DNA of 64,000 nt from assembly GCF_017983445.1 (NCBI RefSeq), contig NZ_JAGOBJ010000008.1, positions 1 to 64,000 on the forward strand, in the 5' to 3' direction. Below, piece after piece: positions 47,299-64,000 of the stretch. Numbering within the stretch: position 1 is the first letter of the stretch; each line of letters starts with the position of its first letter. Below the pieces are notes generated by a model. It did not search any database. It saw only the letters and a list, made by a program, of their open reading frames with translations, and was not told the origin of the DNA. This stretch comes from Halomonas sp. GTDB lineage: Bacteria > Pseudomonadota > Gammaproteobacteria > Pseudomonadales > Halomonadaceae. Made by a program: the position numbers and the translations under genes.

Positions 47299-48795
47299 AT
47301 GACGTTGGCCCCCAACGATTTATGGGAAGCGCTGGGTAGCGTATGGCCGAATGAGCCCTTTGCTCAGACACTGCCCGAACTTCCTGAGTCGCTGCGTTTG
47401 ATTACCGATTCACGCAAGCTGTCAACGGGTGATGTGTTTGTTGCCGTGCCGGGTAGCCAGGGCGACGGGCGTGACTATATTGACATGGTCCTTGAACAGG
47501 GCGCGTCGCTAGTGTTAGCGCATACCAAGCAAGCCCATGCCACTTGGGAAGGTCGGGTACTCTACCTGCCGCACCTTTCCATACGGCTAGGCGAGCTGGG
47601 TCGGCAGCTTTTTGAAGTGCCCACTGATCTTGAAGTGATCGCTGTTACAGGCACCAATGGGAAAAGCTCCGTTACGCATTATATTGCGGCGTTGAGCGAA
47701 GCCTTGGGCACTGCCGCTGGTGTAATCGGTACGTTAGGCGTAGGTCGCCCAGGCCAGCTGGCTGATAGTGGCTTGACCACGCCCGGTCCTTTGGCATTAC
47801 AGGCAACGCTTGGCGAGCTTTCCCGCCAGGGGGTAAAGCGAGTGGCGCTTGAAGCCTCCTCTCACGCGTTGGATCAACACCGCCTGGACGCCGTCGATGT
47901 AAAAGTTGGCGTATTTACCAACCTGACCCGCGACCACCTCGATTACCACGGGAGCATGGCGGCGTATGCGGCGGCTAAAGCCAAGCTTTTTCGGCGTAGC
48001 GAGCTTGAGCTTGCCGTTGTGAATGCTGACGATCCTTTGGCCCGTTTGATGCTGGCTGGCTGTGATAAGCGCGTGCGCGTATTAGCGACCGGCCAGGATG
48101 AAGCCGTTACGTTTCGGGTGCTGGATGTCCAGCTGAAAGAAACGGGCCAGCAGGCGCTGATTGCCACGCCGGATGGCGAGCGCGTATTGACGTTAGGTCT
48201 GATGGGACGTTTCAACCTGGATAATGTCCTGTTGGCGATGGCTGTGCTTTACGGTTTGGGTCAGGAGATTGACCCACTGTTTGAGGCGGCCGCAGCACTT
48301 GATCCCGTGCCTGGGCGTATGGCGCTGTACCATGCGAAATCAGCGCCCAGCGTTGTGATCGATTATGCCCATACGCCGGATGCGCTGCACAGTGCACTAC
48401 AAGCCCTGCGCGCACATTTAGGCCAAGCGGGCAAGCTGTGGTGTGTGTTTGGCTGTGGCGGTGAGCGCGATACGGGCAAGCGTGTAGAAATGGCCAAAGC
48501 CGCTGAGCAACTCGCAGACCATGTGGTGGTCACCGATGACAACCCGCGGGGTGAGTCAGCAGAGCAGATTCGCCAGCAAATTATGGCGGGGCTTTCTTCG
48601 GCCATCACACCACTCGAAATAGGTGATCGTCGGCTTGCCATTAGCCAGACGATTCAACAGGCTGGTGACAATGATGTGGTGCTGATTGCCGGTAAAGGCC
48701 ATGAGGCCTATCAGGAAATCAATGGCGTGCGCCATGCCTATAACGACGAAGATGAAGTGCTGGGAGCCTTCGCGTTACGGAGTCATGCACCATGA
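47299..48795 (+). CDS. murE: UDP-MurNAc-L-Ala-D-Glu:meso-DAP ligase MurE
   Basis: MurE adds meso-diaminopimelate as the third residue of the peptidoglycan stem. The 498-residue product has the Mur-ligase P-loop VTGTNGKSSVTHYIAAL and the central ASSHALDQHRLDAVDVKVGVFTNLTRDHLDYHG. The DDNPRGES motif confers specificity for meso-DAP rather than lysine, and IAGKGHEAYQEI lies near the end. Its stop overlaps the murF start by 4 bp. Confidence 0.97.
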   Translation: MTLAPNDLWEALGSVWPNEPFAQTLPELPESLRLITDSRKLSTGDVFVAVPGSQGDGRDYIDMVLEQGASLVLAHTKQAHATWEGRVLYLPHLSIRLGELGRQLFEVPTDLEVIAVTGTNGKSSVTHYIAALSEALGTAAGVIGTLGVGRPGQLADSGLTTPGPLALQATLGELSRQGVKRVALEASSHALDQHRLDAVDVKVGVFTNLTRDHLDYHGSMAAYAAAKAKLFRRSELELAVVNADDPLARLMLAGCDKRVRVLATGQDEAVTFRVLDVQLKETGQQALIATPDGERVLTLGLMGRFNLDNVLLAMAVLYGLGQEIDPLFEAAAALDPVPGRMALYHAKSAPSVVIDYAHTPDALHSALQALRAHLGQAGKLWCVFGCGGERDTGKRVEMAKAAEQLADHVVVTDDNPRGESAEQIRQQIMAGLSSAITPLEIGDRRLAISQTIQQAGDNDVVLIAGKGHEAYQEINGVRHAYNDEDEVLGAFALRSHAP

Positions 48796-50150
48796 GCTGG
48801 ACACTTGCTGAGGTAGCAACCGCGCTGGGCATAGAAATATCTGAAGATCAAGCAGCGTTAGAGCTTACTGCAGTGGTTACCGATACCCGGAAAATTGTGC
48901 CCGGCTGCCTGTTTGTGGCGCTGAAGGGGCCACGCTTTAACGGCCATGATTTTATCGGGCAGGCCCATGAGCAAGGTGCAGCAGCGGCACTGGTCGAAGC
49001 CTCGATAGACAGTCCGCTGCCCCAGCTTGTATGTCCGGATACTCGTCTTGGATTGGGGCTTCTAGCCGGTGCCTGGCGTAGCCGCTGGTCCATGCCGTTG
49101 ATCGGCGTCACCGGTAATAGTGGTAAGACAACGGTCAAGGAAATGACGGCTGCCTTGCTGGCGCCTCTCGGTAATGTGCTGGCGACTCAAGGCAACCTCA
49201 ATAACGATATTGGCGTTCCGCTAACGCTTTTAAGATTAACCGAAGAGCATCAGGCAGGGGTTATCGAGCTGGGCGCGAACCATCTGGGTGAAATTGCCTG
49301 GTCCAGCCGTTTAACGGTGCCTGATGTGGCTATTATCACCAACGTTACAGGGGCACACGTTGGTGAATTTGGCGGTATGGGACATATTGCCCAGGCGAAA
49401 AGCGAGCTGCTCGATGGCTTGAGTGACCAAGGCGTTGCGGTACTTAATCGAGATGACCATTACTACGCCTTCTGGGCTGCCTGTGCGGCTCCCCGACGCG
49501 TCATCAGCTTTGGGTTTGATAGCTCAGCGGATGTCTGTGCGTCCGCGCTTTCCTGTGACTCTCAGGGAAGGTATGCTTTCACGCTTGTTCAGCACGGTAA
49601 GCCGCTGGGCAATGTACAGCTTGCTTTGCTGGGTAAGCACAATGTCAGCAATGCGCTGGCAGCGGCAGCGGCAGCGTTGGCAGTCGGTATTGCGCCTGCC
49701 GATGTTGTGGCTGGATTGCAAAATCTGCCGGTACTTAACGCACGGCTAAGCATTGTCCCCGGGTTGCACGGTGCTACGCTGCTAGACGATACGTATAATG
49801 CCAATCCCGGAGCGGTCAAGGCCGCGATGGAAACATTGATGCGTTTCCCAGCGCCACGCTGGTGTGCACTGGGCGTCATGGGTGAACTTGGCGATGACGC
49901 TGAAACATTGCATGCCGAGGTTGGTCGTTACGCGGCTGAGCTCGGCATCGACAGGCTGCTGACGCTGGGTGATGCGGCGCGTTCAGCCTGTGACGCCTTT
50001 GGTCACGGGCAGCATTTTGACGACCACGAGACGCTAGCGCGTCATGTCATTAATACTTTGCCGCCCGCCACCACGCTTCTGGTGAAAGGGTCGCGCAGCG
50101 CGGGTATGGAGCAAATCATTGCTGCGCTGCGCTCGGATGAAATAAGGTAA
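48792..50150 (+). CDS. murF: UDP-MurNAc-tripeptide:D-Ala-D-Ala ligase MurF
   Basis: MurF joins D-Ala-D-Ala to the UDP-MurNAc tripeptide, completing the soluble precursor. The 452-residue product has DTRKIVPGCLFVALKGPRFNGHDF, the P-loop GVTGNSGKTTVKEMTAALL, the central LGANHLGEIAWSSRLT and DDTYNANPGAVKAAMETL. The C-terminal VKGSRSAGMEQIIAAL is typical. It overlaps murE by 4 bp, and mraY follows 9 bp later. Confidence 0.97.
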   Translation: MSWTLAEVATALGIEISEDQAALELTAVVTDTRKIVPGCLFVALKGPRFNGHDFIGQAHEQGAAAALVEASIDSPLPQLVCPDTRLGLGLLAGAWRSRWSMPLIGVTGNSGKTTVKEMTAALLAPLGNVLATQGNLNNDIGVPLTLLRLTEEHQAGVIELGANHLGEIAWSSRLTVPDVAIITNVTGAHVGEFGGMGHIAQAKSELLDGLSDQGVAVLNRDDHYYAFWAACAAPRRVISFGFDSSADVCASALSCDSQGRYAFTLVQHGKPLGNVQLALLGKHNVSNALAAAAAALAVGIAPADVVAGLQNLPVLNARLSIVPGLHGATLLDDTYNANPGAVKAAMETLMRFPAPRWCALGVMGELGDDAETLHAEVGRYAAELGIDRLLTLGDAARSACDAFGHGQHFDDHETLARHVINTLPPATTLLVKGSRSAGMEQIIAALRSDEIR

Positions 50151-61048: not shown

Positions 61049-61960
61049 ATGATCAGACAACGCACCCTACAAAACGTCATCCGCGCCACTGGAGTGGGTC
61101 TGCACTCCGGTAAAAAAGTCCATTTGGCTTTGCGTCCGGCGCCGGCAAACACCGGGATTGTGTTTGTTAGAACCGATCTGGATCCCGTGGTACACGTACC
61201 CGCACGTGCTGAGCTTGTCGAAGATACAAAGCTTTGCACTGCGCTTTCGTTTGAAGGCGTCAAAGTTGCAACTGTCGAGCACCTGATGTCTGCATTTGCA
61301 GGCTTGGGTATCGACAATGCGTACGTTGACTTAAGTGCGCCTGAAGTTCCTATTATGGACGGTAGTGCCAGCCCGTTTGTGTTCCTGATTCAATCGGCGG
61401 GTATCCTCGAGCAGGATGCCCCGAAGAAATTTATCCGCATCAAGCGTCGTGTTGCCGTTAGTGATGGCGATAAAGAAGCCGTTTTTCTGCCTCATCAGGG
61501 ATTTAAAGTCTCTTTTGCGATTGATTTTGATCACCCGGTATTTGAGCAGCAGAAGCAAACGGCTCTTATTGATTTCTCGACCACGTCTTTTGTGAAGGAA
61601 GTTTCCCGGGCGCGTACTTTTGGATTCATGAAGGATTTGGAGTTTTTGCGCTCTAATAACTTGGCCCTTGGCGGCAGTCTTGATAATGCAATCGTTGTCG
61701 ATGATTACCGTATCGTCAACGAGGGCGGATTGCGCTACGAAGACGAGTTTGTAAAACACAAGGTGCTGGATGCCATTGGTGACCTGTATCAGCTGGGCCA
61801 CAGCCTGATCGGCGAATTCCATGGTGTAAAATCCGGTCATGCGCTGAACAATCAGCTATGTCGTGAGCTGATGGCGCAGCCCGATGCTTACGAGATTGTG
61901 ACGTTTGAAGGCGAGAAAGCCGTCGCGCCTATTTCGTACGCGGCCCCTGCAATGGCCTGA
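61049..61960 (+). CDS. lpxC: UDP-3-O-acyl-N-acetylglucosamine deacetylase LpxC
   Basis: LpxC is the zinc deacetylase that commits UDP-3-O-acyl-GlcNAc to lipid A synthesis. The 303-residue product has [16 protein letters not shown] and the zinc ligands in [17 protein letters not shown] and [18 protein letters not shown]. The HALNNQL near the end holds the catalytic His. The C-terminus is short and nonpolar (SYAAPAMA), reminiscent of the FtsH degradation tail of the E. coli protein. It follows ftsZ with a 136-bp spacer and ends in a terminator. Confidence 0.97.
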
Positions 61961-62083: not shown

Positions 62084-62542
62084 TTATTTTTCTGGCGCGT
62101 GAGCTGCCAGCCGTTCAAGCGCCTTACGAAGCGCGGGGTTCTGCATGTCGCTTGCGCACTCCGCCAGGGTTTGACCTGCGCTGGCTGAAAGCTTGCGCGT
62201 GTTGCGCAGTGGCGCTTCAACCGGATGTACAGGGCGAACTTTAAAAGTAAAGCCGCTTACGGCTTCAAAACCGGGCAGTTGGTGGAGCAGTGTCAATAAA
62301 CGTCGCTGCTCAAAGCGGAGCCAGGTCAACCAACTGGCTTGACCGCTGATAAGGGTCAAGCGACCTTCACGGAAGCCGCCCACAAAAATATGCTGACGCA
62401 TTTCTTCAGGTAGATGTGCGCGTAAGTGGCTCTGGGCCTGGTCAATAAGACGAGATTGGCGCATTAATTGGCCAATATCGCCAGACTTGTTTAGCAGGCG
62501 GGCGATGGGCTGGGCCTGAGAACGCTTAACCTTTATACTCAT
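62084..62542 (-). CDS. dciA: DUF721 family protein, DciA-like helicase-associated
   Basis: The 152-residue product belongs to the DUF721/DciA family, whose members help load the replicative helicase DnaB in bacteria lacking DnaC. Its N-terminal half has the DciA-type core (LRAHLPEEMRQHIFVGGFREGRLTLISGQASWLTWLRFEQRRLL). The C-terminal part is shorter and basic. In Pseudomonas-type genomes a DUF721 gene likewise lies between lpxC and secA. It is divergent from the small ORF upstream of secA. Functional equivalence to DciA is inferred from the family. Confidence 0.85.
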   Translation of the reverse strand: MSIKVKRSQAQPIARLLNKSGDIGQLMRQSRLIDQAQSHLRAHLPEEMRQHIFVGGFREGRLTLISGQASWLTWLRFEQRRLLTLLHQLPGFEAVSGFTFKVRPVHPVEAPLRNTRKLSASAGQTLAECASDMQNPALRKALERLAAHAPEK

Positions 62543-62648
62543 ACGCTTGAATCCTAGGATAACCCCTCAATATTACCAAGTAGCCATGTAAATTTTTGGC
62601 GAGCTACTTATCAGCAGAGCCTAACACGCTCAGGAGCCAACCCACAGC

Positions 62649-63011
62649 ATGTCCTCAACGCTTAATGCCTTTTATGCTTTGCCGCGACGTTACCGTCGTT
62701 ATGGCCTGGCGCGTTGGTGGCTGGCGGGCCTCCTGGTAAGCTGCCTTTTACCCAGTAGTCTAGTTCCTTCTGATGCATTTCGCGGTACTGAACGCAGCGT
62801 TAGCGTTTGCCTATGGGTGCCCGCTATTTTACGTGCCCAGTCTCACTGGATCGCCAAAAGGCGACGCGCCTTTAAACGTTGGCAGCGGCGCATCAAGCAG
62901 GTGAAGGTGCTGCGCCACTGTTTGCCCGCGTATCGCTTTATAACGCGCCAGGTGGCCGCGCGCGATGTGCTTACCCAACGTGGCCCGCCTGCTGACTTCA
63001 TTGTTTGCTAG
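62649..63011 (+). CDS. Candidate SecM-like translation-arrest leader peptide upstream of secA
   Basis: The 120-residue product matches no protein family I can name. It has a positively charged N-terminus (R13-R22) and a hydrophobic signal-like stretch (L25-P40). A strongly basic middle follows (K70-R89), and the last residues are QRGPPADFIVC, i.e. R111-G112-P113-P114 followed by six codons and TAG. AGGAG lies 12 nt before the ATG. secA starts 73 bp after the stop. This layout (export signal, C-terminal Arg-x-Gly/Pro-Pro, then secA) is that of the SecM secretion monitor. It also resembles RAPP-type arrest peptides that regulate Sec machinery in other phyla. The classical SecM motif FxxxxWIxxxxGIRAGP is absent. 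The coding call is fairly firm; the arrest role is inference. Confidence 0.7.
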   Translation: MSSTLNAFYALPRRYRRYGLARWWLAGLLVSCLLPSSLVPSDAFRGTERSVSVCLWVPAILRAQSHWIAKRRRAFKRWQRRIKQVKVLRHCLPAYRFITRQVAARDVLTQRGPPADFIVC

Positions 63012-63042: not shown

Positions 63043-63065
63043 GGGCGAAACCCATTGGGTCGCTC
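63043..63065 (+). promoter_or_regulatory. Stem-loop between the leader ORF and secA
   Basis: GGGCGA (63043-63048) pairs with TCGCTC (63060-63065, one G-T). After a bulged AA, CCC (63051-63053) pairs with GGG (63057-63059) around ATT. It ends 19 nt before the secA ATG. A weak outer helix is possible between ACTTCAT (62995-63001, inside the leader ORF) and ATGATGT (63069-63075, next to the secA ribosome site), with one mismatch. This would let a stalled ribosome change access to the secA start. Found by eye; not folded. Confidence 0.45.
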
Positions 63066-63084
63066 TTGATGATGTGGATATTTC

Positions 63085-64000
63085 ATGATTAATAATTTGT
63101 TACGTAAAGTAGTCGGTTCTAAGAATGACCGTGAAGTAAAGCGCATGCACAAAAACGTTCACGGTGTGAACGCGCTTGAGGCAGAGTTTGAAAAACTGAG
63201 TGATGAAGAGCTTCAGGGCAAAACGGCAGAACTGCGTCAGCGGCTGAGCAACGGTGAAGCGCTTGATAACCTATTACCCGACGCCTTTGCAATCGTACGT
63301 GAGGCGAGCAAGCGCGTGATGGGAATGCGCCATTTCGATGTACAGATGGTTGGGGGCATGACCCTGCATCGTGGGCGTATCGCCGAAATGAAAACCGGTG
63401 AAGGTAAAACGCTAGTCGCAACGCTTGCGGTTTATTTGAATGCGCTGCCCGCCAAAGGCGTGCACGTTGTAACGGTGAACGATTATCTGGCGCGCCGTGA
63501 TGCCGAGTGGATGCGTCCGCTGTATGAATTCCTCGGGCTCACCATCGGCGTTATCTTTTCGGGTCAGACCGGTGAAGAGAAGCGTCATGCCTACCGGTGT
63601 GATATCACCTACGGCACCAACAACGAGTTTGGTTTTGACTACCTGCGCGACAACATGGCGTTCTCCCTGGAAGACAAGGTGCAGCGTGGCTTGCATTACG
63701 CCATTGTCGATGAGGTCGACTCCATCCTGATTGATGAAGCGCGTACGCCGCTGATCATCTCTGGCGCGGTGGATGAAAATACCAATCTTTATAACGTCGC
63801 GAATCAGCTCTCTTTACAGTTAGAGCAAGGGGAAGTGTCGGAAGACGACGATGTACCTGCGACCGGCGATTTCGTGCTGGATGAAAAACAGAAACAGGTT
63901 GAGCTGACCGAGCAGGGGCATAACAAGGTAGAAGAGCTGATGCAGGCGGAGGGCCTTCTTAAAGAAGGTGAATCGCTCTATGCGGCGCAAAACCTTAACC
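63085..64000 (+). CDS. secA: Protein translocase ATPase SecA, N-terminal part (runs off the window)
   Basis: SecA is the motor ATPase that drives preproteins through SecYEG. The window holds the first 305 codons of about 900. The reading frame begins [21 protein letters not shown] and contains Walker [21 protein letters not shown], the DEAD-type motifs [13 protein letters not shown] and [17 protein letters not shown], and Walker [21 protein letters not shown]. The start has only a weak ribosome site (GTGGA), which fits control through the upstream leader ORF. The gene is cut by the window end, so the C-terminal regions are not visible. Confidence 0.97.

Follow-up and report, generated by a model that had tools for sequence, protein, structure and literature searches.

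The DNA analysed here, referred to as the window, is a 64,000-nucleotide stretch from a Halomonas sp. genome, toward the end of which lpxC, dciA, a short open reading frame and secA follow one another. The dciA gene, assigned by its Pfam match (DUF721, PF05258, E 6.1e-8), is divergent to the short frame, and the frame starting at 63085 matches SecA_DEAD (PF07517, E 1.6e-111). In the ORF reading of the window, the short frame, hereafter the leader ORF, adjoins secA on its upstream side, with 73 bases between its stop and the secA start. The preliminary description, made from the sequence, had credited it with 120 codons, its own AGGAG, a signal-like start, a basic middle and an RGPP motif six codons before the stop, and all of these are indeed read there; the N-terminus is basic, then hydrophobic (R-W-W-L-A-G-L-L-V-S-C-L-L-P). 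The features of the locus are as follows.

61049-61960, lpxC, before dciA
62084-62542, dciA, divergent to the leader ORF
62632-62636, + strand, Shine-Dalgarno-like AGGAG of the leader ORF; most relatives listed have a GGAG-like element before the ATG
62649-63011, + strand, leader ORF of 120 codons, predicted arrest peptide
62706-62777, + strand, residues 20-43, signal-like hydrophobic stretch A-R-W-W-L-A-G-L-L-V-x-C-L-L-P, almost without change across the 24 aligned proteins
62799-62846, + strand, residues 51-66, second conserved segment, partly hydrophobic, V-x-x-C-x-W-x-P-A-x-L-R-A-x-S
62847-62951, + strand, residues 67-101, drifting basic spacer whose length is conserved
62952-62990, + strand, residues 102-114, predicted arrest segment VAARDVLTQRGPP
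62979-62990, + strand, RGPP codons, R111-G112-P113-P114
62985-62987 and 62988-62990, + strand, predicted stall with Pro113 in the P site and Pro114 in the A site, by analogy with RQH toeprints (PMC10987492, main text)
62991-63011, + strand, variable tail of 6 codons and stop
63043-63065, + strand, local RNA hairpin preceding the secA start, frequent in the window's clade
63076-63078, + strand, weak Shine-Dalgarno-like GGA of secA, conserved in alignment A2
63085-64000, + strand, secA, running off the window

The leader ORF gave nothing above cut-off in Pfam and no match in NCBIfam, and the locus had neither an Rfam match at the gathering threshold nor promoter or terminator patterns. A second small frame overlapping the secA start in the window was rejected as a gene because its ATG, as judged by eye, is absent in several close relatives.

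Using a search profile built from 24 proteins (alignment A1, a few of whose members start at a later ATG than the first), we found the leader ORF in 257 of 275 Halomonadaceae genomes and in 20 of 24 genera. Of the 18 genomes without a match, two are incomplete genomes of the same genus (completeness 66% and 80%), and the others make up the whole sample of four genera. Across the order, 12 of 293 sampled genomes matched the profile, all 12 of them Halomonadaceae. By sequence, 59 of 97 relatives matched, a count that includes the own genome and is confined to its genus, and 79 loci came from named Halomonas, Vreelandella or Halovibrio records (partly of the same strains). NCBI taxonomy places the family in Oceanospirillales, and GTDB in Pseudomonadales. 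The profile matched 176 loci in total; after leaving out one locus without the motif, L068, the remaining 175 reduced to 124 distinct regions, in which secA starts 69-237 bases past the R codon of the motif.

The place before secA is filled differently where the leader ORF is missing. We compared 30 genomes without the ORF, namely 20 representing one per other family of the order and 10 from the four lacking genera, and observed an M23-peptidase-like frame before secA in 25 of them, including 10/10 from the lacking genera; the ten such frames tested against Pfam Peptidase_M23 all matched. No M23-like frame was found in any of the 124 distinct ORF-bearing loci, the stretch examined being mostly 1.5 or 3 kb upstream, and none lies at the window's locus, as the preliminary description had stated. 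Since the peptidase frame is present in most genomes without the ORF and in none of the loci with it, the leader ORF probably took the place of the M23 peptidase gene within Halomonadaceae. The locus would thus offer an example of a leader peptide displacing, across most of a family, the peptidase gene that otherwise precedes secA. In the same 30 loci, a scan of 700 bases before secA gave four RAPP-like matches in three loci, all of them short frames, and, judged by eye, no RAPP-like leader; in the 20 other families, at one genome each, no fitting RAPP-like ORF was seen over this distance.

We then compared the proteins themselves. The pattern R[GA]PP, read in fetched loci only, occurs near the end of 175 of the 176 profile-matching loci and of 124 of the 125 distinct ones, as RGPP in 119 and RAPP in 5, and sits 1-13 residues from the stop. 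Five C-terminal residues are invariant in the 24 aligned proteins (D106, V107, R111, P113 and P114), and the most distant genera keep only the R-G/A-P-P core, the D and V not being retained. Among 34 group representatives, the majority residue averages 0.98 over RGPP, 0.62 over the seven residues before it and 0.30 over the eight before those; it ranges from 0.24 to 0.41 between R-45 and R-16, with a per-column value of about 0.25 in the stretch R-35 to R-16, and the 45 residues preceding the motif hold on average 10.9 K+R against 1.8 D+E. The conservation proposed as a check beforehand, a signal-like N-terminus and RGPP end kept while the middle drifts, is thus what the alignment displays, and the leader ORF is real and conserved: a motif that 124/125 distinct loci retain, behind residues that drift, is not the product of chance. 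In L068 the match covers residues 1-70, after which the frame and the RGPP end are lost; either a genuine loss or an error in the sequence could account for this.

Codon substitutions were evaluated in the window's clade (protein group 32 of this analysis), using 32 members without spacer length change and pairs differing at 5-70 codons. Selection is purifying and far from the near-neutral outcome that would have spoken against a gene, with an overall dN/dS of 0.131 (residues 2-114). The ratio is lowest in the arrest segment (0.026, residues 102-114), followed by the signal segment 20-43 (0.057) and residues 44-66 (0.066), and reaches 0.189 in residues 67-101 and 0.239 in residues 2-19. The motif taken alone carries no significance, because the RGPP-coding pattern CGNGGNCCNCC has 69 sites on both strands of the own genome (276 for the same pattern read backwards, a rough control only) and 8 of the 68 other sites lie at most 30 residues from a stop with a preceding frame of about 40 residues or more. 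The 124 distinct sequences amount to a family-wide data set on the evolution of a RAPP-type arrest peptide, telling which residues persist (R-G/A-P-P throughout, with D-V ahead of it in most), which parts drift and which lengths are tolerated.

The length between signal and stall is held within narrow bounds. From the CLLP proline to the P-site proline we counted 74-81 residues in 124/124 loci and all 34 protein groups (mean 78.0, sd 1.6), with spacer letters nearly free. For the window, the distance is about 70 residues when taken from the likely signal end near residue 43, an end that is our own estimate, and this is close to the short one of two SecM classes, whose spacer medians are given as 131.5 and 71 in the main text of PMC10987492. 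The same text reports widely varying spacers in most sec-linked arrest peptides, unlike the nearly fixed spacer of the Halomonadaceae family. Why the length is fixed here though most Sec monitors vary is a testable point.

The leader ORF fits the arrest peptides of the RAPP/RGPP (RQH) kind. Like these, it is a small ORF directly before secA on the same strand, its C-terminal RAPP-like motif is conserved among homologs, and more than 30 residues separate signal and stall. In the main text of the study that describes them (Fujiwara 2024, PMC10987492), uA_RQH_Pseudomonadales is an R109GPP ORF located before secA, and it arrests ribosomes of both E. coli and B. subtilis (fAP over 0.9 on each); toeprinted RQH members have their third motif residue in the P site when they stall. 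Arrest peptides with RGPP upstream of secA, a Pseudomonadales group among them, are hence already published and tested there, and are not new as a kind, whereas a possible new one had first been supposed. The Halomonadaceae family shares with uA_RQH_Pseudomonadales the short ORF before secA, the RGPP near the C-terminus and the order, and R is residue 109 of two loci here (L086 and L108), as in the published R109GPP. Since this numbering fits and 20 other families were sampled without a fitting ORF, we infer that the two are probably the same family, the source naming no species in its main text. More generally, RAPP and RGPP are reported as stalling sequences in many contexts (PMC12992588, in part), and the G-to-A changes within the family (5/124) switch between these two known stalling motifs. 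The main texts of PMC10987492, PMC12992588 and PMC7897499 contain no mention of Halomonas, and a search of the arrest-peptide literature, covering main texts, found no paper among those searched that names Halomonas, Halomonadaceae or Vreelandella; Vreelandella had 0 occurrences among the matches listed from 2024 on.

Compared with E. coli SecM, the leader ORF has a like place between lpxC and secA, a signal-like N-terminus and an R-x-x-P end, together with, in Halomonas sensu stricto (protein group 20 of this analysis), an mRNA arm just past the arrest codons. It differs by lacking a Pfam match, SecM being PF06558, and by dciA lying between lpxC and the leader ORF. No sequence relationship was detected: Pfam SecM matched in 0 of 274 sampled genomes of the class, own one included, with the E. 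coli control positive; hhalign of the leader profile against E. coli SecM returned a probability of 0.3%; and the SecM motif FxxxxWIxxxxGIRAGP, as given in the main text of PMC10987492, is absent, the C-terminal part of the leader reading QVAARDVLTQRGPPADFIVC. The peptide thus shows no detectable sequence relation to SecM, as had been suggested. ApdA and ApdP share the RAPP/RGPP core and the predicted stall with Pro in the P and A sites, and are likened here by motif; they precede secDF and come from other taxa (PMC10951233 and PMC7897499, both in part); for these two peptides, the nitrogen of the A-site proline is described as hydrogen-bonded to the carbonyl of the second motif residue (PMC10951233, in part). 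CruR, a DUF2946 copper leader, is likewise an exported leader with a RAPP end that controls the next gene, and differs in sensing copper by a CxxC, which the leader ORF lacks, and in acting via Rho (PMC9426467, in part).

To relate a stalled ribosome to secA translation, we folded the RNA of 84 representatives (85% similarity) and compared the pairing of the footprint RNA with the secA start region to that of shuffled footprints. Over all representatives, we obtained 5.74 expected pairs against 2.83 in shuffles, with 22/84 at p<=0.05; taken by groups, the result was 22/34 (Wilcoxon p 8e-4). The signal stands out in Halomonas sensu stricto, with 14.3 pairs against 3.5 in shuffles (8/10). There, 39% of the ensemble has the Shine-Dalgarno region of secA bound by footprint RNA, and the opening cost falls by a median of 2.44 kcal/mol once the footprint is masked (0.42 in shuffles). 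For the window's clade the corresponding share of the ensemble is 1.7%, the pairing (3.31 against 2.79 in shuffles, 3/28) and the opening (median ddG 0.11 against 0.23) do not stand out, and the window itself gives 0.93 pairs against 1.17. This negative result is a weak one because the positive control, E. coli secM-secA, also fell short of significance (9.05 against 4.29 pairs, p 0.17; ddG 1.21 against 0.77). Over the 84 representatives the opening effect is modest (median ddG 0.44 kcal/mol, median z 0.25, 17/84 in the top 4%). A duplex test of the 33 bases from the stall codon on against the secA start gave a median z of -0.32 with 12/84 at p<0.05, and therefore indicates pairing in a minority only. 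Four of 20 loci of Halomonas sensu stricto and its neighbours (L089, L090, L095 and L100) read the arm after RGPP in a different frame while preserving it as RNA, and letters kept across reading frames are a sign of selection on the RNA. Folding thus predicts that a stalled ribosome would open an mRNA stem over the secA start in Halomonas sensu stricto, and does not predict this for the window's clade. How the RNA output of one arrest peptide shifts between related genera can be put to test.

Covariation did not add to this picture, the named helices covarying no more than in shuffles in alignments A2 (42 distinct start regions from the 45 members of the clade) and A3. In A3, RNAalifold returned 12 pairs at -10.34 kcal/mol, five of which belong to the outer helix; two pairs, located in the inner hairpin, vary at both positions. 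The outer helix reaches 92.6% pairing without any two-sided change, and 69/500 shuffles equalled the covariation of the whole structure and 24/500 the percentage paired, so we did not retain covariation as proof of these helices. It was likewise rejected for A2, where 182/500 shuffles equalled it and 24/500 the percentage paired, and where RNAalifold gave no consensus structure. Two specific pairings were also dropped: a generally valid one between the Pro-Pro codons and the GGA of secA, the third codon bases, by eye, ignoring the base before GG, and one between the RGPP codons and GGGUCGC before secA, seen in the minimum-energy fold of the window (z 0.01) and not above shuffles in the clade. 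The local hairpin lies 20-42 bases before the secA start and about 40 bases beyond the footprint; its median z against dinucleotide shuffles is -2.08 (33 distinct sequences), and it is weak or absent in L008, L018 and L040.

Our preferred reading, to which we assign a probability of roughly 80%, is that the leader ORF encodes a self-arresting leader peptide, or monitoring substrate, of the RAPP/RGPP kind with export-dependent control of secA. The basic-hydrophobic N-terminus, made first, would enter the Sec translocon. After some 70 further residues, the chain would end in R-G-P in the P site, no bond would form with the Pro on the A-site tRNA and the ribosome would halt on codons 113/114. Brisk export would pull the chain and break the stall; under slow export the stall would persist and secA translation would rise, in other genera of the family by way of an mRNA fold in which the footprint RNA would otherwise pair with the secA start. 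The stall would most likely serve to provide more SecA when export fails. By analogy with its published counterparts, stalling at the Arg-Gly-Pro-Pro of the leader peptide is predicted and very likely, and control of secA by the peptide is likely; that the Halomonadaceae leader family belongs to the RAPP/RGPP kind is well supported. From the original proposal of a new SecA-regulating RGPP arrest peptide, the predicted conservation thus stands and the novelty of the kind does not, while the regulation of secA is something that we infer.

The stall could also act on secA by another route in the window's clade, namely through transcription, with the ribosome shielding the mRNA from Rho or decay as for CruR. 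The lack of footprint-start pairing in this clade and the local hairpin before secA are in favor of such a route, as is CruR itself, which combines a RAPP motif with Rho-dependent termination (PMC9426467, in part). We nevertheless consider it rather unlikely, given that the gap between stop and secA is only 73 bases, compared to 162 bp in the CruR operon (same source), that SecM-like pairing is found in other genera of the family, and that no intrinsic-terminator-like site was found, an observation that does not bear on Rho. That the ORF would encode an ordinary small exported or membrane protein, its RGPP end having another role and secA being a neighbour by accident, is far less probable still: the second conserved hydrophobic segment (residues 44-66) could point to a function of the protein itself, but the ORF is next to secA in 124 distinct loci, keeps RGPP/RAPP, a motif known to stall ribosomes, while the preceding residues drift, and has no Pfam or NCBIfam match above cut-off. 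As for a chance open frame, finding RGPP codons close to a stop is in itself nothing unusual, as the 8/68 other genomic sites illustrate; purifying selection and the presence of the ORF throughout most of the family leave this explanation a negligible probability.

Within the arrest-peptide reading, we put forward, as a tentative proposal that we hold less likely than not, that the family is a length-measuring Sec monitor, in which a spacer of free letters but fixed length would put the second segment at the translocon exactly as RGPP reaches the catalytic centre, and whose RNA link would have been rewired between genera. The peptide would have stayed constant meanwhile, with the secA start paired with the footprint arm in Halomonas and reached by another route in Vreelandella.

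Besides the leader ORF, the own genome holds a second gene with this motif. The ten longest frames at the 68 other RGPP sites were viewed and five of them Pfam-tested, with one match, the shorter frames being judged by length alone; on frame length and Pfam, only the leader ORF and a DUF2946 frame are gene-like in frame. The latter (L223:132-722, contig C5 about 48231-48821; 197 residues, E 1.6e-6) has no same-strand ORF of at least 180 aa after it in the stretch examined. It resembles CruR in carrying a CGYC followed by RGPP 46 residues on by our own count, the spacing in CruR being 45 to within one or two (PMC9426467, in part). Such scarcity of RGPP genes fits the avoidance of RGPP by proteomes reported in PMC12992588 (in part).
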